A program made the position numbers and the translations under genes. A stretch of DNA of 64,000 bases, from contig PTEX01000195.1 of the NCBI GenBank assembly GCA_003342815.1, forward strand, positions 132,200-196,199, read 5' to 3'. Shown here piece by piece: positions 1 through 40,100 of this stretch. The notes beneath the pieces were generated by a model, which saw only the letters and a list, made by a program, of their open reading frames with translations, did no database searches and was not told the origin of the DNA. How positions within the stretch are numbered: the first letter of the stretch is position 1; each line of letters begins with the position of its first letter. Source of the stretch: Eudromia elegans (lineage: Eukaryota; Chordata; Aves; Tinamiformes; Tinamidae).

Positions 1-299
1 TTTTCAGTCAGCCTTTGGACACTGGTAACCTTTCCCCACACCAGCAGAATGAGGGGTTTTGCACTGCTTTCTGCTCTCCTCCCCCTGCCTTTTTTCTTTT
101 TCTCTTTTCTTTATTAAAAAAACCCCACACCTTTCCAAGACTCCAAGTGACAGAGGTACAATAAAGAAAGCTGAATAATATTAAGCTTCCCTTTCATGTA
201 AAGGGACAGTATGTACTGTGGCTAATGCTCATCTATATTTCGCGTCAGGTTTTCTGAAAGAGATGAAATTATTACACTGCCATCAGAACAGACTGTTAC
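1..299 (-). other. VAMP3: VAMP3 intron 2, start of (runs off left edge)
   Basis: This stretch follows the exon 2 donor (GTAACA at 299-294) on the minus strand. I see no further VAMP3 coding sequence here. The next exon, which should start with the VDIMRVNVDKV part of the SNARE motif, is not in the window. The stretch is AT-rich with pyrimidine and A runs near 85-125 and is otherwise featureless. Confidence 0.75.
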
Positions 300-381
300 C
301 TCATCTACTTGGTGTTGTGTTTGCTGAAGACGACGATTACTGCCAACAGCAACATTTGAGCTTCCAGGGCCACTTGCTGAC
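300..381 (-). CDS. VAMP3: VAMP3 (cellubrevin) coding exon 2, N-terminal part
   Basis: The exon encodes the N-terminus of a synaptobrevin-family v-SNARE. The visible protein is SASGPGSSNVAVGSNRR followed by LQQTQHQVDE. The GSNRRLQQTQ-QVDE block is the start of the R-SNARE motif shared by VAMP1, VAMP2 and VAMP3. The acceptor is a pyrimidine tract ending TTATTGCAG (382-384) and the donor is GAG|GTAACA. The exon begins with a lone G that completes the start codon left as AT at the end of exon 1. The choice of VAMP3 over VAMP1/2 rests on its place directly downstream of CAMTA1, as recalled for other vertebrates. VAMP3 acts in recycling-endosome and constitutive vesicle fusion and is anchored by a C-terminal membrane segment that lies outside this window. 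Confidence 0.93.
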
Positions 382-5930: not shown

Positions 5931-6095
5931 GTATGTACAAACAATACATCCACACTCTTCTCGTTCAGACAAAACTATACAAATAATAATTTTATCTTGC
6001 CAAGTTATTGACCCTTTGTGAATAAAATATTTAGTAATTAATCAATATATTCCCTTTCAAATATTTTTTTTCTCATTTTCCATTTCTACCTTCTC

Positions 6096-6103
6096 TATAT
6101 ACA
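6096..6103 (-). promoter_or_regulatory. CAMTA1: Pumilio-type element TGTATATA, copy 2
   Basis: This is a second exact TGTATATA on the minus strand of the UTR and pairs with the copy at 5923-5930. Function is inferred from the consensus only. Confidence 0.35.
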
Positions 6104-7040
6104 GAAACTGCCCAGATTTTGATGAGATAGCCAAAATAAGAAATTTACTGGCCAGAATGCAGCACCACTCTGATCTTTAGGTGGTATAAAATGTCCAGGC
6201 AACATATGCACATGACTCTACAAAATGACAAGGTTTGACAGTCACTCAAGATAAAAAGCTACATGTTTTACAAATTAAGAATGTAATTAAAATAATAGTA
6301 CATGGAAGTAAGGCTAGAAAATAAAGTGCCGAGTATGAGAAAAGTATGTGACAATCGATTTGCAGGTTCTAGTAAAAATACCAAAAAGAAACCTTTTAAA
6401 ACTTGCCTAAGCTGCTCTCTCCGTTTCTCATGCAGTACCCGTTTATCTCACATATCAAACCCCTCTGCACTCTCCCCCAGGATGTATTAAAAACCTGCAG
6501 ATTTAAAAAGTTGCATTAAGTGTGCTGTAGAGATTTAAATAAAACACAAAGGACAGAAGTGCGAAAGAGATGAGGACACGTGGACCCAATAACGATGTAC
6601 TGATCTAAGCCCCTCCACTGAGACTCCAGAAAGCTTCAGTTTCTTGGAGACGACCGACAGTGCAGGAATGGCATTCTTGTGTTGCTTGTGCATTCGCACC
6701 TTTCCTTAACAATATTTTTGGTATAGTATTTGTACAGTTCCACATGTTGTTTAATACAGCCCTATGTGAAAAGGATAATTAATTGCTTCTTCCTTCTTGG
6801 AGAATGAAGCAACTCTCATTTCTTCCCGGTGTCTTTTTTCTCCCGTGATCCAACAGAAGATTGAGTTCCAAGATGTCTTGCTGAACAAATTAAAAGTTGT
6901 CCATGAAAGTGCAAATGCAATGACCAAAACATTACTGTTAAAATCCTGCAGCTGCTATTTCCAGCACTGCAGTGGGTATTTTTGTTGTTGTTGCATGTCT
7001 CTGCTAAAAACAGAAAATGAAAACAGTCTGAAAAGCAATG

Positions 7041-7104
7041 TCACATTGCTACGGGATGCTGCTGCGTATCTTCAAGTTCCTTGGCCTTTTTCAATTCTTT
7101 CACT
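7041..7104 (-). CDS. CAMTA1: CAMTA1 last coding exon, read in two frames
   Basis: The acceptor is TTTTTTCAG (7105-7107). Joined to the cassette exon 16304-16334, it is read from 7104 as SERIEKGQGT and stops at 7072-7074, the C-terminus I recall for the canonical human protein. Joined straight to exon 19905-19979, its first A completes an Arg codon. The frame then reads VKELKKAKELEDTQQHPVAM and stops at 7041-7043. The second tail resembles the CAMTA2 C-terminus as I recall it (RMRELKQNQELEG...). Both tails are 21 residues counted from the divergence point. Sequence alone cannot say which form dominates in which tissue. Confidence 0.9.
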
Positions 7105-10100
7105 CTGAAAAAACAAAGAGGAGCTATATAATAATTCTATTCCCAAGGGCTCGAAAGGGAGCCAAAAATCAAAATGATTTTTCACTGTACCCTCCAGTGC
7201 AGAAGCCAACACCCAGAGAAATGACAAGAGGGCAACATGTTCCTGACCCCATATATAGTTGGAAGCGCAAGGATGGGACAGCAGAAATCTGACAGAGAAC
7301 ATAGTTGGGAGGATACACTAATTCCAAGCCACTGTTTTTTCCCTGATTTATTTTTTTTCTATGTATATGTCTGTCTGTCTATGCATTTAACTACAGCTTG
7401 ACTTCATTCTGGTATTAAGTTGTCCTATTCAATTGCCTGGGATTTTGAGGGGCTGCTTTTCATTAACCAGTTTGACACTGCTTCCTCCTCCAGCTGTTAA
7501 ACCTAAGTGGCTTTTCAGTGTTAACCTATTTTCTGCACAGATCAATGAAATAAGAGCCATTTTCTGTCATGCTAAGCACAGTGGGTAAATCCCTCCTTCA
7601 AACTCGCAAGGAAGGGCTGATCATAGCTGAGACATGGTTGGTCTCACGTTTAGAGACCACTGGCATGCAAGTGAAAGGATGCAGTGGGACCAAGGAAGAT
7701 AATCTGTATCTTTATCCTTGTTGCAGCCTCTGCAGCATCGTGCCCTGGTGCGGGGCAGGTCGTGGAGAGATGCTTTTCAGCACTAGCGGCAGCAGACTCT
7801 GCCTGCCGAGGAAGGTGGAGCTTCTGCGCAGGACAGTTTCTCGCCCTGAATGTGGCATGACGCAAGACACAGGGGTGTGTGACACCCGACCTCCTCTAAC
7901 CTGTGTGAGCCCAAGAAGCAAATCACTTCTGAAAGGGGAAAAGCACTAATAATTCTTTCTAAAAAGATAAATGCTTTGTTTCAAATCCAACAGGCAAGGC
8001 AGGATTTTCCATGGGCAGTGCAAAAGTAACGCAGAGCCAAGGCTGATGCCCTGCGAAGGCTCCCTACGGAGTGGCCGTGGATTCCACGCAGCCGCAGCCC
8101 AAGGCTCCTCACACTACTCAGGCACAGCCCAGGGCGACACTCGGGCCACCTGCACTTTGTGTCCATTGGGAGCTGCTTCGTGGCACCATCCCCTCTGTCT
8201 CAGAGGTGGCTGGTGGCCAAACGAAGACTTAACATGGAGGGGGCGGGCTTAACAGGGTTATCTTAAACAGTGCTGAAAGAGAGGCACCTTGCTTCCAGGT
8301 GAACCTGCAGGAAGTCCTTCTTTGGGCCACGAGGCACACGACTGACTTCGACCCCTTGCGCCCCTCAGAGATGCGCTGCCACACTGCTGGGGCCAAACAA
8401 CAGCTAGAGAAGGCCACACATATTGCACTAGAATAAGCTCTCTTGTGTGAACCAGTCCCTGCCTCCCCAGCTATCCTCTTGCAAGGGAAGCGCTGCCCCC
8501 AAAGGAGTAAGACAGGGCCTCAATTAAGGTGATTTAGCAGCCTGTGTCCATGCTCAGCTGGTCTAGCTGCAACTCAAAAGGACAAATGACAAGGGCACAG
8601 TACAAAGCACTGTGTCACAGCCACACATCTGTAACAGAATCCAATAAAAAGCGAATGTAACAAAGCTAAATCAAATAAAATGCAGATATTAAAAGGTGTC
8701 AGGAGAGGCAAGCACCAGCAGGACTATTTTGTAGCTGCTGTGCATAGGCTTTCACTCATACACCACCTTTTGGCTCTTGCACTAATCTGCCAGCACTGGA
8801 CTATGACAAAGGCTCTATAACTAACCTCTGTACGGTGCCTACAAACAAATTGCACTGGGTGTCCTCTTAACTTAGGAAACTGGGGGCAACAGAAGTCAAT
8901 GACTGCAGCGCACTAAGCAGCATGTGTCATGTCAGACCTTGCTATTTATCTGGATTCTACTGAGCTGTTTGAGATCTCTTGTGTGGTAGGACAGAGGGCT
9001 TTGCTAGTCCAAATGAACACCCTTTCTCGGCACTCGAAGCCTTTCTTCCAAGGGGTGATGGCACTCCTTTGGAATGGGGGAGTTGGCAGCGTCATTCTCT
9101 GCTCTGGGTCAGGCAGAGGAGATGTCTCGATGAAGGTTCCTCGGACTCTGGGAAGCGCCTGGAGCTCCCAAGGAAGGGCCTCCCCTTGGAGGCTGACAAG
9201 GGAGCAAGACAGCACCGCCTTTTCTGAATTTCTGCTTGGCTCATGCTGTACTGAGGCTAAGTGCCTGTAACAACTCCAGTTTCTGCAGTGAAGTCCTAGC
9301 GCTACACAAGCCAAAGCTTAGAAGAACCTTGCTGAAGTCAGGGTTCACCCTCAGAAAGCAGCAATGCTCCCTCACGTCTGGCTCTGACGTAGTCATGTTA
9401 CCTGCTTACTCGGTAAGTCCATCATCCTCTCATTAGAGAAAAAACTGCTATGCTAGAAAAAAGGGTGCATCTGTGCACTACAGGATTTTTAATGTTGAGA
9501 CTAACTATACATATGCTACAGGAACAATTGACTAATACACGATGCGCAGTGCAACTTCCAAGTGTTTCCGGTTGCACTTCCATACTATCATGTAAGATCA
9601 ATCTGGTGTTACAGATCTCATACTGAGAACATGCACAGTAGATAAGCTGGTGGCTCTTTCACTGAGACACATGCTATGTCTACATTTCGCACTTCAACAT
9701 GCAAACTCTATGCTAACATGGCACTTCTGCTGGAAGAATGCAAGACATGCTTCGCTGCAAACTTCAACCTACAGCATGCAGCATCTGTACTGGTGCAGAT
9801 CGAGGGAATCATTTTAGCTGGAACACACATGCCAATGGAAATTAGCGCAGCACTAAACTCTTGCACTAGTACAGATCCTATGCACAAATAAGCAGTGACC
9901 TCCTTGGTCAAATGTACTTTCCATGGGTTTACAGATGGATTTACAGATTTTCAGGTTTATAAAAAAAAAAAAATGTAAGTGCAATGATAATTCTTACTTA
10001 AAAACATAAGGATATGGCAGTATTGAATTTACCTAACCTTACTGTTGCAGGCGTAGAAATGTCATGGGTGCATTAGCGAAAGACACTGCAATGGCAGCCA

Positions 10101-13100
10101 GCTTCTAGGTGATGATCAGAGTTACTAACCTCCTGTATTTGTCTTAGACTAACCTGCCTGTCCAGCATTCCTCATCCTGTATGTGACATCTTAAAGGGCA
10201 ACACGGGTAGGCACTAGGAGTCACTTCCAAGGCACCGCTGAGCGGGTATGAAGACCCACAGCCTTGACCGCCACTATTGCTTGCTCCAGGGAGTGGCCAG
10301 GCTCTGGGGAGGCTGGCTGGCTCCCAGGGGCTGGACAAAGCCTGCGCCTCTGCAGGGCAGTGCGGCGAGCACCTGGGATCAGCAGTTTAACACACTCAAC
10401 TGCACTCATGAGTGCAGTTTAACACACTCAAGGCCACACAAACATTGGGGAAGAACTGACGTATTTTAAAAGCTCTGCTTCTTCCCCAAAACTAAAACAA
10501 TGTGTTTGGTGTGATCGTTAACCTATATGCAAGACCGAGGCCATCTGCTTAATTTGCCATTTAAAATAACTATCTTTTTTAGACAACCCACTGAATTGCT
10601 TTACCTAATACCGACTGCTTTCAACCCATTAGTTCTTCAACCCATGGATAGTCTGTTGCAGCCTTTCATGTGTCTCAGAAGACACGCAGGCTTTTAGATC
10701 TCATTTTACACCTTTTTGAGGAAGTTTCTTAGTGGTAGCCTGATTTGATTCAGTAACAGTGATAGAAAGTGTCAGCATTGTCTCTTCAGTATTTTACCTT
10801 TAGCTCAGTGTAGTAATAATAAACTCCCAAACAACAAACAAATCCCAAAACCAAAACTTTTCAAATGTAGTTAAATATGATTTAACCAGGCAATTTTTTT
10901 GACAAATAATGACCCCTGAAAATAGAAATTTGCTGAGTAAGGGCCACTAGCACAGCTCTGACGTGCCTTCCTACCAGGAGATAATCTACTACTTGTATTT
11001 TCCACACTTAAGTTCAAGTGTGGAAGAGAAGTGCAGCATTTGCAGTTACAAGCATTACTACTAAATCACTCTAAGGAAAAGAATGTGGTTGAGTTTTACA
11101 AAGTGGTTCACAGAAGCATATTCCTAGTGATGACATTTCCACTCTGGTTTGGGAGGTTTACAGTGAACTTACAGGGAGTATTTTTAAATATAAAAAATAG
11201 TAGTCATAATAATAATAATAAACAAAGCAAAAGCAGAAAACGAGAGCCCTGAGAGCCCATAACATCAGCAGGCCACACTCTAATGAATGGTGAGCAAACC
11301 TCACCAGAGGTCTACAAGCACTGCCTTGGATCACTTTGGAAAGTGCCTCCAGTTGCACAGGGACTGGAGGCGATGACTATTTCGGATGAGTATGGCTGTA
11401 AATCCGAGCACGCTGCAACGGGCACTGGGCTCTGGCTGTTGCAAGACTGCAAAGAAGAAAGACCATCCCACTGCAGGAGCTACTGAAAACTCGCACAGAA
11501 TTGCAAGGTCAGCATATTTCTTTCTATAGTGATAAAGCCTCAAGCAAAACCCTCCACAAAACCAGTTTCGTTGCGACGGAAAGCTTCTCTGAGGTATCAG
11601 GCTGCTCTCTCAGCATCAGCCTAAGAGCAGATGGATGGAAGATGTCTGAGCGCTAGAGGTCACCACTGCTAAGCTGTCCTGTTCACTGCCGTGGTGCCAA
11701 CACACTCCAAGAGAGAAGAGTGCTTGGACCACCAGCATCAAACCCTGACACCCTGGAGCTACATCCCAGTCCCCAGACTGCCACAGCCACACCAGGCTCC
11801 TGCCCTTCAAATTGTGTCACTCACTTGGGAGCTCTTAGGAAGTGGCATCCTTGTGTGCTGAAACAATGTAGAAAGCAGCAGCCCTGGGACTGAGCAGTGG
11901 CTTCATGGATTTGCTTTTGTTTTCTCCCCTCCTTCTGCCCCAAGTCCCATATGGGAGAGTGAGCACATGAATTAGGCCTACTTAAAAAATGGAACAGCAA
12001 ACGATGGCTCCATGGATAAAGCATAGCACAAAAATGCTTCATAAGATTTACTATGTGGTGCCCAGCCAGGGAAACGTTTAATGAATCTGTGAGGGTTGTT
12101 GCAAATTGGTTCCAGGAATGCTGAAGGATATATATCAATATAAAGGACAGGGTACACTGGGAGCCAGCAAAGGTTTTCTATCAAGTTACCTGCTGCTCTG
12201 AGAGCGGAAATGGCTTGTGGGACATTTAAGAAAAGGGACCTCTTGCCTTTTTCCAGGTATCTCATTTGGGTTGCAAAACAAAAAAGACAGAAAGGCCCAA
12301 TAAGTGTGACATCCCAGAGCATGCTTGTCTGCAATTTAACATGCACATTTGTGCTCTAAATACATTCCGCCACTGCAAGAAGTAAATGGAAAAAAAAAGT
12401 TATTTAGAAAACTTTTGCTGCATGCACAGTGAGGTGTATTGCAACATGAAATTTTCTCACTTTCTCCTGAACAGGACCAAGAAAGGGACTTCCTGATCCC
12501 TTATAATCTTCCCCTCTTAAAAGAGGAAAATGAGTGCTTAAAAAACCATAGCTGCTGGATAGTACATATTAAAAACAAACCAAAAAAGAAGTCCTAGTTG
12601 CATGAGAGCAGGGCATAGTTTACTGATGAAATGCCAAGAGACAGAAGGGCCTCCAAGGAGCAATAAAATATACCCTGCATTTCTTATTCAGGTATGAAAT
12701 GAAGTTGTACTTACCAGAGTAACTGACTTCCGATGTCACATGCACGCTCCCCAAAACAGAGAGCAGCATTTAATCAAATGTAAACACTGGGTAGGGGAAA
12801 GGGGGAAACCTATCTACAAAAGAAAGCTGCCATAAATTGTTATATTATTTATTATTCATGAGCACAGATAATTACAACTTTGATTTCTCTGCTCCTCAGC
12901 AGACAGAAGTTTCATTGTAGGCAGAAAGGGACTGGCTAATAGAAAAAGATCTGAAAAGACTTGCTCCTTGCCATTTGTCCCAGGTGCCCAGTCTGCCAAG
13001 AATCAGTCAGAGAGGCCCACGGTGCTGTGCATTTCTGCTTATAACTAACATCCACACTCTGAACACAGCTCGCCTCTGCTGGGGGTGGGTTATAACAGCT

Positions 13101-16100
13101 AAGTTTAACCAATGAACAGGGAAACATTCGCACAGTGGGCACTGCAGTCAGCTGAAATATGTGCACCGGAGTAGGTTTCCCCAAGATAAAAGTTATTACT
13201 TAAGGGCAATAACTCGATTTGTTTTTCCTAGAAAGTAGTCTCATTTCTGCTGCTAAAGGATATAAAGTTTGGTCTCACTTAGGCCAGCCAATAATCCTCT
13301 GCTCCTGCCCTGCTCTTTTCTGATCCTGGTACGATACAAGCCAAATAAATCCACAGAAATTCCACATTAAATGAGGAATTAGAAAGGAGGTTTTAAACCT
13401 GAAAGTTGGAAGCAAATACTCTGACAATCTATCTACTGAGGCAGGCTAAATAAGTGCAGTGTCAGAGTACAGAAGACATGAATTCAATATACAAACGTTT
13501 ACATGCATCCCTTCAGCACATACAGACACAAAAGTTCCTGCGGGGCAGAGGGCCCAGAAGTATTTATTTGCTTTCTAATACATGATGCACATGGACAGCA
13601 TATGCACACACGTTGCTGTAGGAACTCAAATCAGCAAAGAATCACTTGCCGTAATAGGTAACCTTTGGCAAAACAGCAGCTGAGGCACTTTTTGAGGTCT
13701 CATTGATTACTTTTCCGAAATGATTGGAGAAAGCACAGTTAAGCCTAATGGAAAAATCATCTGAATGCAAAACCAAATGCTCTTTAGTATGGAAAACAGT
13801 ACCTGTGCGCCTAGGACAGCTTTTGATCATCAGTGCTACGGGAGAGTGAAGCCCACTGGCTAGATTATGAGAAAATCTGGGATGCCAGCACAGGAGATCA
13901 GGGAACTGCTCTGCATAGCCTTTTAACTATACAACAGAACTGGATTCCCACATTTTCTTTGGAAAGGCTCCCAAACTCAGTGGCAATACAACTAAAGAGC
14001 GAACACTAAAACATATACAGGGGTAGAGTTTTGTTTGTCTGCTGTGAGCTACGCAAACTTTTTCACGGCATCAGGATCACCCAGTGGTTGAGCATGGAAG
14101 GGCTACACACGAGCTGGGGATGATCTAGTTCACCTGCCTGCTTGAGCAGGGCCACCCCCAACACAGCAGCAGGTATCATGCCTGGGAGGGTATCCCCCTC
14201 CACAGGAGGAGATCCCACAATCTTTCTGAGCACCCTGGACCCATGCCCAGTCATGCTCTTGTTGCTGACTAGAGAAAATTGCAGGGTACCCCATTTTTCT
14301 CAGTATTTTCAGCTACTTCCAAGTACCAACTTCCAAGAGCAGCTTTAACCATTGGTCTGTTACTGTTTATGAAACTCTGAGTAAGAGAGTTACGCCAAGC
14401 CATACGGGGCAAAATCTACAAATGCTCAACTCCCAGGATCTGGGCCTCTGCTTCCCAGGAGGTTCTGGTATGTTTCTGGGAAAGGTGCCCTGCTGGACCA
14501 GATCTAGCACTGAGCACCTCTGCCCTCCAGAGCAGAGCCTGAGGGGCAGCAGTAATAAATAAACAAACTGGCATCCAAATCTACAGCACTCACTAAAGCC
14601 CCCTGCACAAGGTAACTGATCCAGACAGTAAAGATGGATGACTTGCTTGCTTCTGTTAGAAAACAAGACAAATCACTTATTTATGTCTTTACATAAATAT
14701 GAAGATAGGTTGATTCACTTAATGAGAATTACATCTATTACTTTTCTTTTAGTTACTTAGAGTGAATTGTATTTTTCTAAACCCAATTATAGCTACTTCA
14801 AGAGGCTTTATACACCAGACATCCCAGTCTAGGCCAAAAATTACCAACGCTGATTATATAATATACAAAGCGTCTCACAGCAAGTACAAATGACCTGGTC
14901 AGCCCACCATTAAGAGAACACAGTTCTTGAATAAACTTGCATTAGTTGTAAAGCTGGTAATAGAACAAAGCACATTATCAGAAGTGCCATGAACTTCAGG
15001 TATGGTTTCCCAGCTAGCAGCTTCACCATGTTGCTGCCTCTGCAAATAAGGATGTTTCTCTTTCTCTGGGCAAGGTGCAAGGAAATGAAGCACTAAAACA
15101 GTTAAGGCACATCTAGGTCTTTATCCTCGTTTAATCAAAATATTGCTCCAGCTGTCAAGAGTGAAGAACACAAATTGCTACCTACACAAAGCTGAAGTTA
15201 GGCAAAAAAGGCACCACAAAAGTGACACTTTTGAAAGAAATGTTATTAGCTACTGCTTCATTAAGCAAAACAGTCAATCCAGCAGTAATGCCTTGACTTT
15301 TCCATGCTGAATGTTATGTGAAGCAGGAGTTCAAAGTGACCGCTTCCTCTGCCAAAACAACTCATTCTGTTGCCCTGCAGCCTCCCAAGCACCCAAGCCA
15401 GCACAGAGCAGTCCTTGCTGACAGCTCCTGCACGTCTGCCTGGAAAACTAAAGCATTCGGGGCTCTGCAGGGAACGGGACCTGTATGGGATCCCTTGGGT
15501 CTCCCCATCCTGCAGTAGGGAGCAAACTAGTGCACTGACGTGGCAGATCACCGAGGTCAGTGGACTTTTAATCCAAGGAGAACCCCCGCAGAAGCTCTTT
15601 GGGCAGTTCTGGAAACTGCCAAGTTACTGTACCGCAATTATAGTATCTTCATGTTAGCATTTTCTCTCTTTCTTCTCTGTAGATCAACACAAGCAACTGA
15701 GAGAGGCAGCTGGCAAAGAGCTGATCTTTGAAAAGCAACCAGATATGTAACTTACCTAAGACCAAATTCTAGGAGGTAAGAATTGGCGCTTACCATCTTT
15801 CACAGTAAAATGCAGTGAGAAGAGCTCTTCCCTGTCACTGGCTCGGGCAGAAACAAATACCTGTCTAGTGTAAGCTCCATCTGCACAGCAGCTTCCAAAA
15901 AGCTAACACAAATGCTGTCATGTCCTTATTATATAGAGAGAGCATAGTTACTCATTGAGCATGTGTCACTGCAGACCCACTCAAGTTCTAAAATTCACTG
16001 ATAGCCATTTTGGATGCTACAAAATTGCCCATCAACACCACCTTCTAAGCATGCCTGCGATGAATAAACAGGTCTTTTTTCACATAATCATGCACTGATA

Positions 16101-19100
16101 ACATCTACTGTGGAGCTCTGTCCTGTTATAAAAGCAGCAGTGTTAGTCATTGCAGTGGGGTTAGTTTATACACGATTCTGTTTCATATAATTTATGGAGG
16201 TGAAACTTACTGGCATATCTGGCTGCAGCCCCATGCAAGCAAGCAGAAAGCAAAAATACTTAAAATGGAAGAGAGAAACTGGCTAGCAGGCAGCTACACT
16301 CACCCTTTTGTATAGCCTATGGTCCACCAGAGGGCTTCAGACAGCAAAACAATACCAAAAAGCTATTAGCACAACGCGGCAGAAACGGTCCTTACCAAGA
16401 GCTGCACGTCAGTGAGGAGGAGGAGATGCACATGCGTGCTTGCCTGCAGAGAAAGACCCCTTCCCACCTCCTGCCTCCGGGCTCCTCCTTACCAGGAGGT
16501 AAAGCACCTTCCTGCGTTTAGGTATTTTAAGGCAGGAAATAAATAGGTAAAATAAGGCCAATCCTGTCATCCCGGTGGTATTTCCAGCCGCATTCAACCG
16601 TCCCTTGGAGTGACTGTCTTCTCTATCCCAGTCCAAAGACTCCTCTGCAAGAACCCACTATCAATCACAATCACAGCCTAGCAGTGGTGTAGCTTCTGTC
16701 TCTTAGAGAAATAAAATTTTCATGCGAATTGGACAAGGAAGAGGAAATTAAACATTGTCATTGAAAGATGATGGAATGGAGCACGTTCAGCTAATGCAGA
16801 GCCCCTTCAGAGCTTTCACTTTTCCTTATGGTTCTGAAGGATTGCTGTTTGGGAACCCCTTGGAAGACAGAGTACGGACAGAACCACTCACACCGAGCTC
16901 CCTCACATCTGCCTCCCGTGGGAGAGCGTGCCGGAAGGCCGGTCTGCTCCTGGCACAGGGACGGGCAATCACGGGTGGGAAGCTGATCGGAGCCTGCACG
17001 CAGCTATCCAAACTTGGCTCTCTTGAGAGGCAAGGAGTGTTGCTTCTCTTGTTTCAGTACTTTGTGATAAGTCGTGGTGATATCATGTTATGGCAGATGC
17101 ATGTTTTTTCCACCAGATTTTTGAGAATATGACAACGGATGGATAAATATATACTTTTTCAAGACCAAACGAAAACCATATATCCCTGACCATAAGAATG
17201 ACTGCTGCTGACAAATGAATACACTTGTTGCCCCAATGCCTGCTAATAATCAGCTATTAGAACTCCAACACCTTGGCTTTCTTTAACAATAGTCAGTCTA
17301 AACTTTTTTTTTTTAATCTTTTCTGATTTTCAGCAATTTCTACACAGCCTTTACTCAGAGAACCTAAGTCTTGAGACATCAACTGTTCCAAAGCATCTGA
17401 AATTGCGTCTGACCAGGCAACAAGAGTAGGTTCATGAGATCAGAAAATGGAGACCAACAAGCCTAGGAACTCTGCCCTGCAGCCTCAAGCTGATACAAAT
17501 CATGTTTGCTCTACTGAATATTTGCACCAATAAGATAAAAGAACAAAATAGGGCATGAAAACAATTTAAATTGTTCTGAATGCTAACAGAAAGGGATGTT
17601 TCATAAGTTGCTTAAAAGAGTCTTTGATGGATGTAAAATAGAAAAAAAAATCATGCAGNTGCTAGGAAAAAAAAGAGTAATTGATGAGAAAGGATACAGA
17701 GCTACATCCCAGTAAAGAATCACTTACTGGCGCAAGGATAGGGTTGTGGACAAAAAACAAAAGGTTTACAGTCTTAGCATTATTGATATTAATAATTGAG
17801 GCAAATTTTTATCTTAGTTGTGTTCTGGTATTGGCAAATGTTAGATGAAATAAGAGTCAAAAGAAAAAAAAAAGAGAACAAGAAACTATTTGACCTTGTT
17901 TTTTGTTGGAGAAATTACAGAAACATGTGATTATTTTCTGTTCAGAAGGAAAAGTGCCGCAGTTTTGAAAAGTTTTGAAATGCAGTTATATCTTCAATGG
18001 AAACATAACTGTTTGCTTCATCACATTCCAGCCAAGAACCACAGGCTAAGTCCAAAATAACCACAAGCTCTACCATAGTGTCTAAGGGCACAGAGGGGTC
18101 CGTGTGGTTGTAGAAACTCTAGTAGTCTGCTAGGAAAGGTAAAGACAGGGATTTTATCTCCTCCTTGATTTGATTTCCTATCTAAGAATATCCAAGTCCT
18201 TTATTTTTCTCCAGTGATGCTCAGCAGCAGCAACCACTCTTGCTACAGAGAGAACAGATCTGGCTACGGGCAAAGGGAAGGGACTCCCTCACAAACTTGA
18301 CTGATCCAATGAGCATGTCTCGCTCTAGAAAGGAAACGTGAAATGCTGAAGGAGAGGAAGTCAATGAGTTAAGAAATAAAAAATGCTGGAACCACAGGCA
18401 ATTTAAGCCCTAGAGAATCTAAGTTACCAGACATGTGGAGACTTCTCTGAACACAGTTTAAAGCTGCAGTGCATCCTGCAAACCACTGTGAAATCCACTG
18501 ATAGGGCTAGTTGCAGAAACTCTGTGGGTGCACATGTTTAAGGCAGCTCTAAGAGCCCCTGGCCATTTGACTCCAGAAGTCCCACAGATGGGAAAAGGCT
18601 ATCACTTCATAAAGGATGACCTGGACATCAAGCAGATGCCAGAGAACACAAAAGGTTGGAGTCTCTGCCTGCTTAAAAGGGACAAACTGGCTTATGAACT
18701 GGAAAATGGACCCTTCAGATCATCCACTTGCCTTGCTGAGAGCAAGAAGCCACCTGTGCTTCTTCATGAAATCCTGTGACTATTTTGGGTGCACTTGAAA
18801 TTGGTCTGGAAACCACAAAGCCCTCTTTTTTGTTCAGATGTGCTACTTCCCGCTGAACCTGCGGGTAAGAAATTCTTCCACAACCTGAGCTATACTAACC
18901 TCCTGCAGACTTCACCTCCGAACTCCAACAAAAAGGACCGAGTCTTTTCCTAAAACCAGTGCCCCTTATCACCTGCCTCTCTGACCTTGGTTTCTTCAAA
19001 TATCACCAGGTTGTACTAGATGTGCTTCAAACTACAGCAGGCATCAGGTCTGAACAGCTCTGCGTGCTGTTGGTGAATGAAATGCATGTGTGGTGAGAAT

Positions 19101-22100
19101 GGAGAAATCTGAATTTGTGTTTGCCTATGTAATGTTCCAGTCTGCAGTCTAATTACATACAGGACTCTTTCATCAACACATCATTTGCCTGCAGAGAGGG
19201 GAGTGTTGACACAGGGGAGCTCACTGCCACATGTCATCAGCCAGCACCTGACCTATCAGGCTCAGCTTCCCATGCTAGCAGGAGATGATTCCTGTTCATG
19301 CCTGTGGTTGGACTCCCAAGTTCACCGAGGCAACTGTGGGGCAACTAACATTTGAACCAACCTATCTACTGCTCTGCTGGCACATTCCACCCATCCACAT
19401 TAAAAAAGTCCATCTTTGATGAGACTCTACCATTAAAGTCATTTCCAATGTACAGCAGATGTTGTGGTGTTCTGTTCACCACGTACGAAGAACACTGTGT
19501 ACAGTGTGCAGGCCTGTTCAGCAATTATGAACTAACTAGCTATCATTCAGTGAACTTTTTCTTTCAGACTTCCTCAGGCCCAACCTTAGAAGTCACATGC
19601 CTTACTTTGCTCAGATTGGCTCAAAGTTTCCTTATGTGGTATCTGCCCAGCACAACTCGGGCAGCTTTACCAGGAATGGAGCTCAGCATGATAATTGTCT
19701 TTTAGCAACAGTCCTAACAGATTTCCTTTTTGCCAGTGTGTCTTGAAAGCAGCTGAGCTCTGCTTGATTAAAAGATGTGTAGTGAGCTAATCTATTGTCC
19801 TTTACACTGCAGTATCACTAAGGCTTTTGAATGTTACTACAATGCCCTTAGAAAAGTCAGAAATGAACAAAACTAATAATAATAAAAAGAAACCAATCTA
19901 ATACCTGTGGCGGCAGCGTCGTAAAAAACGCATAATCTTGCGAGCAGCTTGATCCTGCTTCTTGGTGAGCAGACTGCTTCTAAACAGGAAAAAAAAAAAA
20001 AAAGAAACATCAAGGCACAAGCGAGGCTAGGTAGAAGAGTGCTAAATATCAGAATAAGCACTCTATAAATTACTGTCTTTGTTTCATTGGCCTTTGTCAG
20101 CACAGTCCTGACTAATCATCACTGTACAAAGATCCCATCAGGGACTAACAGCCCAACGAGCTTACCTGAGTTTCTGCTGAACAATGGCAGCTGCTCGACG
20201 ATTTTGCCTCCTTTTCCCATACTCTTTGTAGCTGCGATAGTACTGCTGGATTAGCATTGCGGCTCGTCGGCTCTGCTGGAATTTCTTCTGCTCATAATAG
20301 CTTCGGAATTTGCTCTGGATAAGAATGGCAGCTTGCGTCATCTTTTTATAAAGTGCATACTATAAGAGAAACAAACAAACAAAGTTAAGACACTCCAATA
20401 AACCTAACAGGAAGACAGTTCCTGTAGTGAAAGACTCTGGAGCCACTAAGACATGATGATCAGCCAATGAGCATCTACTCTCTGATTGGGAACTGACTGA
20501 GAGATGAGCTACAACAAACTGAAAAACTGTGAAATTCAGTGCAGAACATAATCTGCATCAGGTAAGCAAGTAATTGTTCTGCAAGAGAATAGCTTGATGG
20601 GATTGAGTTTAACAAATAGCTGGCAGAAGCTGTGCAAACGCGCAGTAATGCTGAACAGATCCAGCTGTACTCTACTTGTGAACAACCTCAGAAAGACATA
20701 AGTTGATCCAGAGTCAGGTTTATATTGCTCTGTATTTGTACTGAAGTGCGTCTGCATTAGATTAGATGTAAACTAACTCAATTCAGAGGAACCATCTTTT
20801 TCCTTTGCATGCAGTAAAACTCATTAAAAGATGCAGAATACTATAAGACTCAATTCCACATAGCCATTGCTTGCCAGAATCATACCAACAAGAGCAAAAT
20901 ACACCCAACTAAGTAACAGCATGAACGACTATTCCAAAATATCAACAACCGAAATAAGGGAAATTACACACTATTGGACAAAAAAAAAAAAAAAGAGCCT
21001 TAAAAAATTTGCTGTTCACATGTGCATTTCACTTTCCTATGGCAATTAACTTTCAATAGCCAGCCTGAACAGTGTCACACTCTTGTTTCTATGCTACAGT
21101 ACAGTGCTGCAACTCTTGATTGCTCATATACCCTTTTAAATCCAAGTATTTCAGATAGAATGGCATATTATTCCAACTTAAAGAAAATATTTTAAACATG
21201 CAAGTCCAGTATCGAGGATAAGTTTTGTGAAAGTGTCCTTTTAACGATTATGCATTCATGCATATTTTTAAAGGTCATCATTATTAATAAACAGACATCT
21301 AGAATACTTTATCCAAGTTGTGTTTGCACCTCTGAACTAATATTATGACAGATGTTTTCGGTGGTTGCTGACCTTATTTGGGGAATTGTAACATGTTAAA
21401 AATGTTAGTATCTGTTGTTCAGGAAGTTTACCAGCTATGACTTCCTGCTCATTTAATCAGAACACTGCTGAGACAGAGAAACAGCAGACACTGCTCTGCA
21501 TTGGGCATTATCCTAAAATAGCTTAATGGAGTGCTTGAAAACTGATATTTGTCTATTTGAAGGAGGAAAAACAAAACAAAGCAACAACCCAGCACCCAAG
21601 GCAAGCAAAAGACTCTCTCATACCATTACAGATCCCCATTTACCAAATTTCACTTTTTGGAATTGAAGCAGTCATTAGGTACAGTTTTATTTTGTCATTA
21701 CTTATTCGCATTGGTTTTGTTTTGCTTCTTTTGCTTTTAAACATTTTTAGACAAACGGACCAGACTGTAGTTTATAAATAAACCTATTCATAGGCCAGTC
21801 ATGGCTTTCCTTCCAATTTTTAGCCCAGAGAGGACTTCTGTGGCTGAGTTACAAACCCCTGAACAGAAGGGTTCCAAGAAGTAGTGATCTGAGCCATTGC
21901 TACTCAAATCTCCTGTCCTAAGCCTGTGCTGACCTCAGTAGTAGTAACATAATAGAGGAATAAGGTGTGTGAGAGAGAAAAGCACAATCTCTGCATACCC
22001 TACACACCAGTATGTTTGCATTCAAGATCCACTTAGCTGATTATCTACTCAGGTACTGAGACCATGGTCCCTCCACAACTGCCCAAATGGGAGTCCCTCC

Positions 22101-25100
22101 CACTGCAAAGAGGATAAAGGGAAATATCACCTAGTATCCATGCAGAGAGTTCATTTGCCCTATTTCAATGGGTATAAAACCACAGTGCGTGAGGAAGCTG
22201 TGGATGAAAAAAATACCCGAGGACACTTTCTCTCCAGAAAGAGCATATCTTGTGCCCAAGAGAGCTTTGAGAAAAGCTGAGCTGATTCCAGTATCTGGTT
22301 AGAACAAGATGTTGCACCACTGGCAAATCCTGCTTTACAGGAGAAAGTTATTCATCATGCACCATTTAAGACCGGCATTAACACCCATATCTTCAATATG
22401 GGCAGCAATGTACATGAAGGTGATCAAGAAGTCTGAGCACAGGCATTTTACAGGTGGATTTTCAACTTACTTTCACAGGTAGGCAGAACACTAACCATAT
22501 TGCTGTACGAGTGGGATGTGAACGCTCCCTTATGCTCCCAGAATACTGAGGAAAGACTAAAAGCAGCAACAAAGGAAGGTCTGTCCTCTGGAAAGGGACT
22601 TCAGAACCCCTCTCCTCAGCCCATCACTGCTTTGCAAGGCATAAGAAGGAGACCTTTTTTTTTTTAAAAAAAAAACCAAAACACCCTCCCAACTCCCTAA
22701 CTCCCAAGAGAGGTTTGGTTTCTCACAGTGCTTCAGCTACCACAGCTATTTACCAGTGGATAGTATTAAAGCACTGCACTAAATGCCAGCTTCTTCTGGT
22801 TACTATGGAATATGAAGTCTTATGACCCAACGGGAATGGTTTCCAAAACAGTGTTTGTATTGTATTACCTTCAAGGCTATCCAAGTAAGCTTAGGGAGAA
22901 ACAGAAAATACAAGGTTAATATTAGTTCTGCAAATAAAGATTTGGAAAAAAAAAACCCCAACAACAACAACAAAAAAAACCAAACCAAACCAAAAAAGCC
23001 ACCAAAGCATCTTCTTTCAAAAAGAAGTGATTCCAGGATCCAAGACAGACTCTATATAACAGCTTTTGAAAGGTAGTAACTTAGCTTGCACAGGAAGCAA
23101 CACTTCAGAATGACAGCTGTAGGACAGTTTGAGGGTCAATTGTGAGGCACTCTACTAACACCAGAAAGGTTTCCCAACAATTGATTTTGAAAGCTGCAAA
23201 AGCACACAAGAATCTCCTCTTTCACTTCGAGTACTGTGCTTTGAGGCATCCATCAGACAGCCAAAGCCTGATGGGGCACAGGGAGACGGCTCTGGGCTCT
23301 AACTGCTAAAAAATAAAGCGGGGAAACAGGGGGGAAAGAAAAAGTATCTTCTTTTTCTGGGGTTGAGAACTCAGCCTAAAATCACCTCTCCAAAATATTT
23401 TGGAGAACAGTCTCAGTCCTGGAACAATTTGCAACAAGCTAAACCATTGGATTTTCTGCAGTTCAAAAGTTTGGCACGTGCAAAATAAAACAATCTATTT
23501 TTTCTTCTTCACCTGTGTCAGAGGCAAAACCAACTTCAATTTCACAATGAAATTTGGCAAGCAATTAGTGAGAAAACAGTCTCAGTAGATTACAGCATGT
23601 GTATAGGCCAATATGAAACACAACAGTCTCCTCCATCTCACAGTAAAAATGCAGGTATCATGACAAAATCCTTTCAAGGAAGTGCCCTCTGAGATTAGAC
23701 TCAGGATCTGAATTTTCTTCTCCTTCTAACTTTGTCTGATGAGGGTATCCTGCATATTGCAAGGCACACAGAAACACAGTGGCATAATTCCAGTCACAGA
23801 GGGTTACATTCATGACACTACTGTGTGTATTTTCTCAAAAAGCTCTCGTTTCCTCATTTACCTGTTTGTACTTTCGGTAGCAACGCTGAATGACAGCGGC
23901 AGCCACCTCTTGCTGTTCCCGGAGAGGACAGCCCTGTGCAGAGAAGCAAGAAGTAGTAAATACTCAGACTGCTCCAACAAAACAGGACAGATAAGCCCCT
24001 CACAGCCGCTTCAAGGGCTCCTACTTCTAAATCTCATCCACTAAAGTATGCGACCTAATTTCATTTCAGGTATTCACAGTGAATGTAAGAGACAAAAAAA
24101 GATCTTTACCAAGCAGGTGACAAAACGGCACCTCTGGAATGCACTTCTAGGATATACTTTGTGACTGCTACGCTCTAGCCCAGAGAGAATGCTATGGTAT
24201 GGCTTGGTGGTTGCTGAGTAAATGTCAACAAGAGAATGCTAAAAGCATTGCACAAGTTATGGTAGAAACTCTTTTCTTTGTCTTAGGAATGGATACTATC
24301 CCTCACCTACATTTTATTTCCTAAGGAACTAAAGAGGAAGACATGTTTCGGACACTTACCTTGTATTTCCTGAACACTGTCTGGACGAGTTTGGCAGCTT
24401 CATAGAGCTCTCTCTGCTCATGATCGGACAGAGTTAACTGTGCAAACTCATTCTCTACCTTCTCGCTGGTGGATGCACTCAGAAATTCAGACCAGTCTGC
24501 GGTCGAAGGAAGGCTGGGTTTCTCAAAAGATATTTCGCTGATCGGTGAGCCTGCAGGGCTCAAGCTGGTGTTTGAAGAAGGAGTCAGGGGTTCACTATAC
24601 AGATTTCTGAAACACCAATCACAGTAGGAATTACTGGGGTCACAAAGCAGCAGCACTGGCATCACAAATAAGAACTACAACATTTCTAAGTTCAGGGGAG
24701 AGACTTGTATTCCTCCACACCTCTCCAANCCAAATTCCTCGCTGCTGAGCCTGCTTGCACTGTCTTGCTTATGCTTAGCAAAAGACGACAACTCAAACTC
24801 TGCGGCCTTATGTTTCTGTTCTTTCNGAGATATATTTCCTATATTATCATGTGTAGTATTTGTAAAAAGGTTTAGGTGGGAAGATGACTGATAGATGGAA
24901 ATTCAGTGACAAGTGACTGAATGCTGTGCATACAGCTCATGCTTATTTTCTTCTCACAACTATTTTGTCACTACAGAAGCCTGTCTGCTGTTCAGCATTC
25001 ATATGCAATCTGTTTATTTCTCTACAGAAGATATGTTTGCCTTTTTCTTCTGTAAAAACAACAATCACATTTCTTTGAAGTTTGGTTTAGTGGGTCTTTC

Positions 25101-34100: not shown

Positions 34101-37100
34101 CAGTGGAATAACTTAAGGGAAAGGAATCCTTAACACTCTGAAGATAACACCAGGGAACTTCAGGCATTTGTGACCCAAGAACTGTAGGTGACTGCATTTT
34201 TGTACAAAATCCTGAACAGTACAGGCAGTAGTGGCATCTTTAGCTTGTCACTTGCTCGGTCCTTCTATACAGCACAAACTGCGAAGACATTCCCTAACAT
34301 GTTATCAGTTTAATTTGGTTAAGTACTCATTTCCGAAGAGCTGTCTCTGCAAAAACAAATATTTCTGCAAATGAACTTCAGTAGTGGACTGGACTCATTG
34401 TACAAAAAGGTCTGTTAAACAGTAAGAAATTATAGACTACAGTCTCTAGCAGCAAATCAAAACCAAGCATGAGCCTTTATATCAAAAGCAATAACATCCT
34501 GCTTTTTCTTCAGACGTCTCTTCCCTAGATCTCAGGGGCAGTGAGATTTGCAATGTTCAGTGACAGCTTTGTCAGCATACTCACTGGGAGATTTTAGAGA
34601 TACCAGGTGAGCCTGGAGCACTAGAAGAAGGTCACAGCGCTACAGACTGTACTACTGCCTGTGCTGTTCAAGATTTTGCATAAAAGCAGCCGGTTGTCTG
34701 CAGCCACCTGCATATCTTTGGGCCACAAACATGCTGTGCTTTCTCACAAAAGCAGCCACACTATAAAGGATGTGATTTCAGACACGTGCAAAAAGCAGCC
34801 TGGGCATCACGGCGTACTCCTCCTCACCGGCACTGTGTGCTGCCCGTGACGCTGCCCACATGTCAGGAGGCTCTCAAGTCTTGGGGAGTATCCTCCCAGA
34901 GGAGCACGCTAAAGGAGCCATGAGCAGTAAAACACCTTGAAGGACTCTATGCTATATCTGTGCCATGGAACTGGATATCCTGCAAAAAATTCTGAATCAC
35001 AGAAACTACAAATTCTAGAAAAAAAAAAAAAAAAGTCATAAATTCCCAGACTGACAGACAAAATAATCTAAAATGATATCCACTTCCTGTTAAAAACAGA
35101 TATAATGCAAGGTACAAACAAACAGAAAAGTAAAATACTTGACTAGTGAGCACAGGAGATGGAGATATCCTTCCCTGGGAGTTTTCAGTGACCGGTCAGG
35201 CATGGTCTGTATGTTTTCATACCGTCTCCAGACTGGGAATGGCCTGCGTGATCTCCTCAAGCCCCCTTTCCAGTCCTATTTTTGCAGTAACCTAGCCAGA
35301 ACTGGCACATGCTTGACTCTGCCTAAATTCTTCAGGCAAGGTTCTGGCTATCAACCTCATTATGCATCATATCAGCTACATTATGAAATTATGGAGTGGA
35401 GACACGGCTAAAAGGCCCGCTCTTTCTCCCGAGTCTGTGCTGCTGCAGTAGAAAAGCCTTCAAAAGCCTTGGTCTGCACCATACCATCCCCTCGGCAGGT
35501 TTTGGGAGCAGCAAGGTAGAGCGAGAAGATGGAAACATGACTCAGTCCCACAGCCAGGGCACATGGAAAGGAATGGCTGCCTCAGAAAGGGGTGCAGCCC
35601 TGTCCCAGGGAGAGCAGAGCAAGGCACAGCCCTGAGCCAACTTCAGGACAGGCCGACTGAAATTCAAAGCAGCACTGCACGTCAGCCTGTGGCACACACG
35701 GCAAGGAGTAAGCAAAGGTCTGAGGGGTTGGGCCCTATCCCAAGGTATCGAACCCGGCAACATCCAGGATGAGAGGACTGACCTGGGAGGCTGCAAAGGC
35801 TCTGGCGGAGCTCCGGATGGCTTCCCGTGCAGCTCCACACAGTGGGGACAGGGCCACAGGCCCCCCCAGGGCTCTGCTGGTCGTCTTCGGCATTCCCACG
35901 GCCAGCTGGAGTTGCTGTCTTCCCACAGCACCAGCTGCAGCCCCAGCTCTGCCTTCTCCCGCATTTCCATGATGGCACCGCGCACACTAGCGCTCAGTAG
36001 CCTATTCCAAAGGAAAGCCAAACCAAACGCCACCCCTGGGCCCTGCAAGGCAGGAAGCGCGCCCATCCAGCACTCGGGCGCTGTACTGAACGGCCCGCCA
36101 GCCCAACGCAACAGATGACGCGCAGATGTAGAGCAGCCTTTACCTGCCAGAAGAGCAGGACACAGGGAGGTCCCTGGTCAGCAGCGCGGCCCTGTGCGGC
36201 GACTCCAGAGATGCCCAAATGGCCCTGAGTGGGAGCAGCTGTGGGGTGCTCCTTGCCCGCTCCCCCTGCTCCCCACAGCCAGGCTGCGCACTGTCTCAGA
36301 GTTTCAGATGACTCATAACTACAAGGCTGAGATTGCCTCGGGCCTTAGCAGTAAATAATCTGCGTAAAGTTGTAAGCGAGTCCGTAAAACAGCAAAACGT
36401 GTAATCAAAGGAGTGGCGACGAGACAGCGGCGAGTGCGGCCGCCGGGGAGGCGGCCACATGAGGGCCCGGCGCCCGCCCGCTCCCGCGCTCGGCTCGCGG
36501 CTCCGGGCGGCTCCGTGGCGCCTCCCGCCGCCGCCCCCACGCACGCCAGGGCGGTCNNNNNNNNNNNNNNNNNNNNNNNNNNNNNNNNNNNNNNNNNNNN
36601 NNNNNNNNNNNNNNNNNNNNNNNNGGAGCCGCCCGCGCCCGCCCCATGCAGGAGCCACCGCCCCGCGCGACGCCGCTAGGGCGCGGCGGCCCGAGAGGGG
36701 CCGGACGCGAGCGCCCTGGGAGGCGGCGACGGGAAGCGGCGGCGCGCGGCTCGCTCCATTGTCCACCAGGGCGGGGCGGGCCCGGCCCCAATCCCTAGCC
36801 CCGGCCCCTCTCGGCCCGCTCTCCCCTGCGGCGCCACGTGAGCGCCGCGGCCAACCGCGAGCCCGCGCGGTGACATCAGCGGGGCTCATTGGCGGCCGCC
36901 GCGGTGTTTACAGCCCGCGCTCGCCATGGCAACGGTGCGCGCCCGCAGTGCGGCGCCGCAGCCCCGCCCCTGAGGCCAGAGCCGCTGCCCCCGCCCGGCA
37001 CCGCCGGGCCCCGCACCGGGGGCAGCCCCTGAACCCGGCCCGNGAAAGCGGCCGCTCCGCCCGCCGCAGCGCGAGGCCTGCGCGGCCCCAATATCAGTAT

Positions 37101-40100
37101 CGGGCTGCAATAACTGAACCACAAACTACTAAGGCCTCGGGAAAGACTCCTTCTGAGACGCGTTGTCTCCAGAAATCCTAGATTTTGCAACCTCTTCTGT
37201 AAGCCTTAAAAGCAGAGGTGACAGTACGCATCCTGCTTTTGAAATTCACTCCATACTCAATGTCTTGCCGTGCTTTTATAGCCCTCCATCCCTCTAGCAC
37301 AGGCTTTTTCCAGTAATTTCTTGAAGTGAGAATTTATTGATATTTATGAAAATGCTGTTAGAAATCTTTATTTGCAGAATATGCTGAAATAAGCGAGAGT
37401 GATTCTGAAGTGGGACATTTTCTCCGTTACTCCTTCCTGCTAGTGGCCCGGAGAAAGCAGACCCTGCTGCCCAGGCAAGCGGACAGATTTCAGGGCTTCA
37501 CGTGGCTCTGGAGCTGCAGCAGTGCTGCAGTAAATGCAAACATACAGTTCATATATTAAATGTCTTTGCCTTCCTGCTGAAGAGTTTTGTTAAAGCAGGT
37601 TGCTCGTGCAAACTTCGGAAGGATGGAAACTGGCCTTTACTAAGCCATCCTTGGGAGACTGCGGGCTTTATTAAACCTACCTCTCCTCCAGCAGTCATGA
37701 TAACTAAGATTGCTATCTGTGTTTAACAGTATAGAGCAAAAGAATTCAAAATGTTCATCTGAGCTAACTAAAAAGAACTTCAGAATTCTAGTCAATATTT
37801 CAGGGCTATGAATTTTCCTCGCAATCCTTTCTGCATGATTATGTAGCTGACTAGGGTAAGGATTTAAAGCACTGCAATTAAAGCAAACAGGGAAGACCAA
37901 GGAATTTGAGCAGTTATCCTACTGGTAAAANTCCCACTGGCTTATATGTTATCTAGCTAAGCCATTATTTGTTTTCTAAGAATGCACAGGGAGACGTTGG
38001 TGATCCTTTAAATAAGATGGTTATTTGCTGCCTTCGTAGCACTGTGCCTCAAGGCAGAGGCCTACAGTTCGTATAGTTATTCAGTCTTTTTTCCCTGAAG
38101 GGCCTCTGCATTGCAGCGGTCCTTTTATTTTTTTTTTCCCCTCCTCGCTTCTGCTTCCTGTTAGTAGCATCCTAGTTTGTTTGCTGCTGCAGTCCCCCTC
38201 CCTCCCACTACCACCATGTCATAACAAGCTCTAACTGAGAGCTTGCCTGGTCACCAGCAGCTCCCAAACAAACCACAGGAACACCAGAGACAGCAGACAG
38301 GTACCGTGCCACTGAAATCCCATCTGCTGCTATTTGGAAGGAAATTTTATTTACTGTCTTTCCCCCCATCCCCAGTCATTTCCAACAATGTCAGCTGACG
38401 TTCTGTACTCACTTCTATCTCATAATCCAGTTGGAAATGGCTCCCGCTGACCCAGTTCTGGCATCCACATTTTCAGAAAAGACGTAAGTGTGCTTTAATC
38501 ACCAGTGCGGGGGTGCTCAGAGGTCTGACTCTGTGACTAGTTCCTAGGCTCAAGGTTGCTAATGCTAACTAGTGGTATGATGAACACGCCTGTGAGTGTT
38601 CTAGTGAAGAAGGCTTCTACTGTCAGGGCATCCCAGAGAGAATAAGTTAGCCCAGCAAAAAACAGCCAAACACAACCTACACGGCTATTTAGCTGCTCTG
38701 AATTAAGCTCAACACTGTTCTGTGTTTCTCCAGCTAAACACTTCTGTGTTTGTCATGGCCGCCAAAGTATGTGCTATAACAGCAGAGCAACACCTGCTAC
38801 TTCAAATCTTTGCAATGCTAGCAATATTTTAAAGTTACTAAATTGATACCAAAAGTAATATCCACCATAGAGTTCTAGTTACATGAAGTGAACACCCCAG
38901 AATCCCCCTTCCTCCCAAATGAGTAAGACATTTTGGCAAGAGGTCTGACTAGCCGTGCAGCGAGCCACAAAGCTTCCCGCCAGCAGAGCCTCCCCTGTGT
39001 GCTTCCACCCTTTCCACCCGCCAGGAGCTGCTTCACTTGTGAAGGGCCCCACCATTCATTTGGCGAGCACTACTGAAGAACAGAAGGTGCTTCTTACCAT
39101 CCAAGGACAGCCAGTCATGCTGGGAGGAAGGCAGGGTTGGCAGAGCTCTGGCTTTATATTCAAACACCACAGAATTGGAGATGATCTGGTTGTTGAAGGC
39201 AACTTGCAAAGTCACAAGCCCCGTGTCATGAGCTGAAATGAAAGAATGGGCAGTGAGACAGAGGCTTCCCTGCAGAAATGCGATCAGATGTTAGTCTGTC
39301 AAGCTCCCCAGGTGCAAAGGGGCAAGGCAAGAATAGATGCAGTGAGAGCAAGTAATTATCTAAGCACAGTTTTTCTGATTAGACAAACTAAAAATGCCAA
39401 TCTGCTTTTGAAAGCACTAAAGCTGTAACCTTCTGAGCCAAGCCAACAGACAGTTTTGGCAGAAGGCAGAACCACACAGCAGGAAGCTGGTGCTTAATGA
39501 TAAGCTAAGTTATTCTGCATATACTTAAAGTCATGTACTGGGTGCCAGCACCACCAAAACCTAGGCAAGGATCCTGAAATTCTTCTTATTGTGTGAGTGC
39601 TAAAGAGAAACCACAGAATATGGGTGAATTACAAGGCAGGGAATGTCTGTCTCATATCAGTTAATGTTTATTTCAAAATGAAAGCACTGGTATCCAAATG
39701 ATACTCGCATGTATCTGTTATGTATCAAGACCCTAAATTGCTGTTCATGTACCTACAAAGATCAAAGAAAATGGAAAACTTCCTCAGTGTTTATATGCTA
39801 CCTTATAGAAAGGTCCATGAGATCAGTTAGGACATTCAGCACATTGATAAAAGACATTTAGCATTTTAAACTTTGTATATGGTCTAGCTTCTCCTAGCTT
39901 CAGCTCTCATTCAGCATCCTTTGAAAATGAATGTGGGCTAGCTAAATCCTATCATAGAAATGAAGTCTGTTTCCACAGCAGCAACATAACCTAATTCAAA
40001 ATGCAGCCAGAGGTGCATGAGTGCCCAACACACAGCTAGTTCTAGTGAGAAAGGAGTGAAAGACATGGGAACAATTTACCACGAGTTCCCCCCCAAAAAG

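Follow-up and report, generated by a model that had tools for sequence, protein, structure and literature searches.

Rbfox-activated neuronal cassette exons and microexons are a known class; a length of 31 nucleotides (nt) is just above the usual microexon size, and most conserved neuronal microexons keep the reading frame. Non-triplet splicing with a dual-coding outcome is an established class as well, according to the available passages of PMC13247117, where a survey of dual-coding events was performed with a 60-nt threshold. In this article we describe a window (the whole analysed stretch of 64,000 nt, contig PTEX01000195.1 of Eudromia elegans, positions 132,200 to 196,199) that carries on its minus strand the 3' end of what is presumably CAMTA1, a transcription-factor gene of the brain, where a 31-nt cassette exon is predicted to set the frame in which the shared last exon is read. 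The switch is best read as one more, short example of the known class of non-triplet, dual-coding splicing; neat as the change of frame is, we probably see in it alternative splicing of an ordinary type.

A predicted splice switch at the 3' end of CAMTA1

The elements concerned are the following, in coordinates of the window:

19905..19979, minus strand: penultimate exon (exon D), ending ...IMRFLRRCRH plus two bases (AG), junction CACAG/gtatta
16304..16334, minus strand: cassette exon of 31 nt, borders gaag/CCC..AGG/gtgagt
7041..7104, minus strand: coding part of the last exon, border ttcag/AGTGAA; in the skipped-form frame the tail ends VAM and the stop codon ends at 7041
7072..7104, minus strand: double-read stretch of 33 nt, ten codons and the stop in the included frame (SERIEKGQGT and stop)

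The penultimate exon (19979-19905) can be joined to the last exon (from 7104) either directly or via the cassette (16334-16304), and all three possible introns have GT-AG borders. The length of the cassette is not a multiple of three, and the shared last exon is open in two frames: the skipped form reads RCRH-RVKELKKAKELEDTQQHPVAM with its stop codon ending at 7041, the included form reads RCRH-SPLVDHRLYKRSERIEKGQGT with its stop codon ending at 7072, and the tail has 21 residues in both. The initial annotation had given the coordinates of the three exons, the two frames, the GT-AG sites and the 21-residue tails exactly to the base; the overlap, which it placed at 7072-7103, had to be corrected to 7104-7072, that is 33 nt including the included-frame stop, with ten codons read twice. 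Since both stop codons are inside the last exon, nonsense-mediated decay (NMD) would not be expected for either form.

When the reading is continued past the 5' splice site of exon D (19904-19898, minus strand), the protein ends RCRHRY before a TAG stop; intron retention at this point could possibly give a third, short protein end.

Two matches to the CG-1 domain above the curated cut-off are located upstream of the window on the same contig and strand (C107:237707-237865 and 217836-217925), and judged by their order and strand these exons would belong to the same CAMTA gene. Both features of the CAMTA family, the upstream CG-1 domain and the C-terminal IQ motifs, are present, the latter only just at the cut-off. 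What the sequence supports is a CAMTA gene that has CG-1 exons upstream and a last exon predicted to be read in two frames, depending on splicing.

We consider it rather probable that an Rbfox-regulated 31-nt cassette of CAMTA1 swaps a helix-compatible tail for a tail starting with Ser-Pro after the IQ array. The non-triplet cassette would stand one exon before the end and its inclusion would move the frame of the last exon by one base; a stable mRNA should result from either splice choice, because both stops are in the last exon, and the proteins would differ only in their final 21 residues. Binding of Rbfox to UGCAUG motifs 67 and 210 nt downstream would probably overcome the weakness of the 3' splice site and so drive inclusion in neurons and perhaps in muscle. 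The helix-compatible skipped tail could continue the last helix of the IQ-like array, and the Ser-Pro following RCRH in the included tail would end this helix and add a possible proline-directed phosphosite. We infer from these features that both forms may be used, that inclusion would be neuronal and under Rbfox control, and that calmodulin or partner binding could be affected.

Strength and probable regulation of the cassette

Among the 1374 AG..GT pairs lying 20-42 nt apart in the 12.8-kilobase intron, the cassette is the only one that reaches its own scores at both ends, the bar being the cassette's own score on a generic, hand-set weight matrix for vertebrate splice sites. Its 5' splice site (AGG/GTGAGT) ranks among the best 0.3% of all GTs of this strand and its 3' splice site (CTGAAG/C) is weak (top 6.5% of AGs), while the 5' splice site of exon D (CAG/GTATTA) is in the top 10% of GTs. 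Judged by these scores the cassette seems less likely to be a chance pick. That the 31-nt segment is only a pseudo-exon, with the skipped tail as the sole end of the gene, is very improbable: such a case would agree with the weak 3' splice site of a cassette predicted from sequence, whereas the joint site score is unmatched by the other 1373 pairs, two UGCAUG motifs lie downstream, and the human protein presumably ends with the included tail.

No mobile-element source of the cassette is visible, its 251-base-pair region matching only itself in a genome search that skips very common words, and no tandem repeats were found in 6000-20500. A UGC located 12 nt upstream of the cassette was set aside, since 14% of AGs have one similarly placed.

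The intron downstream of the cassette contains the following two hexamers, which we take to be motifs of the Rbfox type:

16232..16237, minus strand: first UGCAUG, 67 nt into the intron
16089..16094, minus strand: second UGCAUG, 210 nt into the intron

At least two UGCAUG occur in 2.6% of minus-strand stretches of 300 nt and at least one in 6.1% of stretches of 100 nt, frequencies that are not clean probabilities because the motif was noticed after looking. No UGCAUG was present within 300 nt downstream of exons A-D (exons A to C are listed below), and the 300 nt preceding each of six exons tested were likewise free of it. In the passages available, a skipped exon of Camta1 is known as Rbfox1-regulated (PMC8975553) and Camta1 mRNA is a positive control for Rbfox1 binding (PMC6715404); since the exon is unnamed in both passages, it is we who infer the link from Rbfox1 to this cassette. 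The mouse reverse primer of the Rbfox1 paper matches the penultimate exon at 17/20 positions (15/20 on the other strand), and the forward primer matches exon C at 15/21, but the other strand at 16/21; with this placement the cassette would be downstream of the amplicon, which would not report on it. The splice-site scores and the downstream motifs make it probable that the cassette is a genuine exon under Rbfox regulation.

Exons that are short and have a weak 3' splice site are readily skipped, hence the included form could be the normal one and skipping occasional noise, an explanation that we regard as unlikely. The human reference protein, which presumably has the included tail, would also agree with it; on the other hand, the skipped tail is a clean, helix-compatible in-frame end, and codon choice, although not to a significant extent, is slightly better for the skipped frame, as described in the next section.

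The double-read stretch and the age of its frames

The initial annotation had laid weight on the fact that both frames stay open, and this weight was lost in the comparison with chance. When the skipped tail was recoded at random with synonymous codons 100,000 times, the second frame was open for at least ten codons in 47% of cases, and the figure for random sequences of the same composition was 56%; being so frequent by chance, the double openness is no evidence. Tails of exactly equal length were obtained in 7.8% of the 100,000 synonymous recodings. The frequencies of an open second frame are in accordance with an incidental double reading, in which both forms would exist, the openness would follow simply from a length of no more than ten codons, and one tail or both could be dispensed with. 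The overlap of 33 nt is also below the 60-nt threshold of the survey in PMC13247117 and, going by the passages at hand, would not be counted there, however this threshold is a chosen cut and not the definition of the class. We still hold an incidental double reading to be rather doubtful, because the joint site score and the downstream motifs suggest a maintained exon. Moreover, if SERIEKGQGT is identical in mammals, as we presume, the overlap DNA would need to be almost frozen.

The constraint that would act on this stretch can be stated precisely. Not one of the 99 single-base changes in 7072-7104 is silent in both frames; 18 are silent in the skipped frame only, 19 in the included frame only, and 62 in neither, so that both peptides being identical across species would mean near-frozen DNA. 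The overlap is therefore a compact test of double-frame selection, for which a cross-species comparison would be decisive. As a bolder and quite speculative proposal, the overlap might be under selection in both frames across amniotes, an Rbfox-switched cassette having frozen this part of the last exon, with neurons swapping an ancestral helical end of the IQ array for a phosphoregulated Ser-Pro tail and thereby tuning calmodulin sensing by CAMTA1.

Concerning the age of the frames, the skipped frame could be ancestral and shared with CAMTA2, the included frame having been overprinted when the cassette arose in CAMTA1. This proposal, compatible with our favoured explanation, seems to us nearly an even matter, with doubt slightly prevailing. 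It is in line with the C-terminus of CAMTA2, the pattern of which would resemble the skipped tail. Codon choice leans the same way: scored against the 807 codons of this gene, the skipped frame reached +0.63 bits and the included frame -0.83. The difference of 1.46 is at the 55th percentile of the true-minus-shifted differences in the gene and is not significant, and such a difference has little power, the true frame beating the shifted one in 66% of the 2752 usable draws out of 5000 (draws with a stop in the shifted frame or a start at an exon edge were dropped). In sum, codon choice slightly favours the skipped frame without deciding the matter.

The window's own genome assembly (944 megabases, 723 contigs) was searched for paralogues and only the best candidates were scored. 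The CG-1 family search gave 2 matches, both upstream on this contig, with no CAMTA2 among the best candidates. The protein search from the IQ motifs to the tail gave 23 matches, again with no CAMTA2 among the best candidates scored: 2 belonged to this gene, 16 to an IQ-rich region of C688, 3 to C114, and 1 each to C47 and C45. The gene may have been lost, may be missing from the assembly, or may have been missed. Searched as a degenerate DNA pattern, the included tail had 0 matches in viral contigs and 0 in a collection of genome contigs, as expected for a vertebrate exon.

The IQ array and the possible meaning of the switch

Three further exons precede the penultimate exon:

24360..24606, minus strand: exon A (NLYSEPL...VFRKYK), containing the first IQ-like motif
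23862..23933, minus strand: exon B, IQ repeat, 72 nt
20166..20359, minus strand: exon C, IQ repeat, in frame into the penultimate exon

Exons A, B and C join in frame without a stop ahead of the tail. In the joined C-terminal piece the IQ-like motifs start at residues 74, 97, 120, 143, 166 and 186, with spacings of 23, 23, 23, 23 and 20 (a further loose match at residue 133 was left out of this series), and the splice junction directly follows the last motif, IMRFLRRCRH. When the array was compared with PDB, all matches with an expectation (E) value up to 0.1 were myosin chains, 3 for the skipped and 4 for the included form, with no CAMTA chain among them, and the myosin-V lever arms had E 2.2e-4 and 4.2e-4, respectively. 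When only the penultimate exon and the included tail were compared, a single weak match was obtained, CBFA2T2 (E 0.82).

Averaged over the first 12 residues of the tail, the helix cost is 0.29 kcal/mol per residue in the skipped form vs 0.64 in the included form, and over all 21 residues 0.49 vs 0.59 kcal/mol, on an approximate scale. The included tail begins with Ser-Pro right after RCRH. The tails do differ in charge, as the initial annotation had proposed, yet this claim is weakened by the size of the difference, which is a single net charge (K+R-D-E: +1 skipped, +2 included).

Several points weigh against the explanation that we favour. The junctions 19905-16334, 16304-7104 and 19905-7104 are predicted ones, the UGCAUG count is modest evidence, and the Rbfox1-regulated Camta1 exon in print may be another exon. 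On Pfam IQ the joined C-terminal exons score slightly higher as a whole protein in the included form (21.0) than in the skipped one (20.3, which equals the cut-off), contrary to a role of the skipped tail in completing the array. Degeneracy is evident in the last IQ-like motif, which has a core score of 7.5 vs 23-29 for repeats 1-4, neither tail has likeness to these repeats (-10.5 skipped, -10.75 included), and the maximal helical moments are nearly equal (0.50 and 0.46, respectively). Shuffled tails matched the repeat-likeness score in 85% (skipped) and 62% (included) of cases.

That a tail completes a further IQ repeat is not supported, as neither tail resembles repeats 1-4 and the included form is the higher one on Pfam IQ. 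Relevance of the switch for calmodulin, also suggested in the initial annotation, is possible but weak, given the degenerate motif at the junction and the last 54 residues, for which no Pfam IQ match was obtained in either form at E values up to 10. In the available passages of PMC8428840, CAMTA1 of mouse and human is linked with memory and ataxia, and the CAMTA proteins of worm and fly with calmodulin levels; in the worm calmodulin was suggested to repress its own gene by way of the IQ motifs of CAMTA. If the switch is true, the choice between two tails behind the IQ array would offer an isoform-specific handle on calmodulin control.

Downstream of CAMTA1, on the same strand, the peptide NRRLQQTQHQVDEV at 297-338 (minus) presumably resembles VAMP3, which we take to be a neighbour of CAMTA1. 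The identity of the gene as CAMTA1 rather than CAMTA2 is a presumed one, the points considered being this neighbourhood and the lack of a second CAMTA among the candidates scored in the assembly. The frame around it had no Pfam family, and Pfam found no family above its cut-off in five single reading frames of the window, this one included. Within the gene, upstream of the penultimate exons, the stretch 36296-37205 is apparently GC-rich with many long reading frames on both strands and could be an internal CpG island or a promoter. A run of 68 N bases is located at 36557-36624, and 29 single N bases are scattered elsewhere in the window, e.g. at 42803 within the long reading frame 42545-44575.

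Relation to known systems

Compared with the CAMTA1 isoforms in databases and in print, the included tail corresponds to what we take to be the end of the reference human protein, SERIEKGQGT, and for this reason the included form is very probably already annotated. The cassette is like Rbfox-activated neuronal exons in being short, in having a weak 3' splice site and a downstream UGCAUG, and in belonging to a nervous-system gene. It differs from the Rbfox type in its 31 nt and in shifting the frame.

In one open-licence literature library, the listings and passages retrieved contained no description of a double-read CAMTA1 last exon. Searching the open-licence literature for the tail strings returned no CAMTA paper, only the short string KGQGT being matched, in unrelated titles. 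CAMTA has no occurrence in the main text of PMC13247117, as far as that text was available. A new CAMTA1 exon was found by reverse transcription polymerase chain reaction in PMC2467489, but the primers, on our reading of its passages, lie in the CG-1 region and not at the cassette. In C9orf72 cerebellum a CAMTA1 exon-skipping event was reported, the exon being unnamed in the passages seen (PMC11031479).

The CAMTA1 switch is unlike the dual-coding events in the available passages of PMC13247117 in that only 33 nt are read twice and the tails are equal in length. The closest comparison in these passages is the tnt-3 microexon of C. elegans, where expression of both forms was measured, while the CAMTA1 forms are predicted here from sequence. 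It should be emphasized that the plan of the two systems is alike: in both, a short non-triplet exon sets the frame of a shared downstream sequence and the two C-termini differ, and NMD, which is not triggered in tnt-3, would not be expected in CAMTA1 either.

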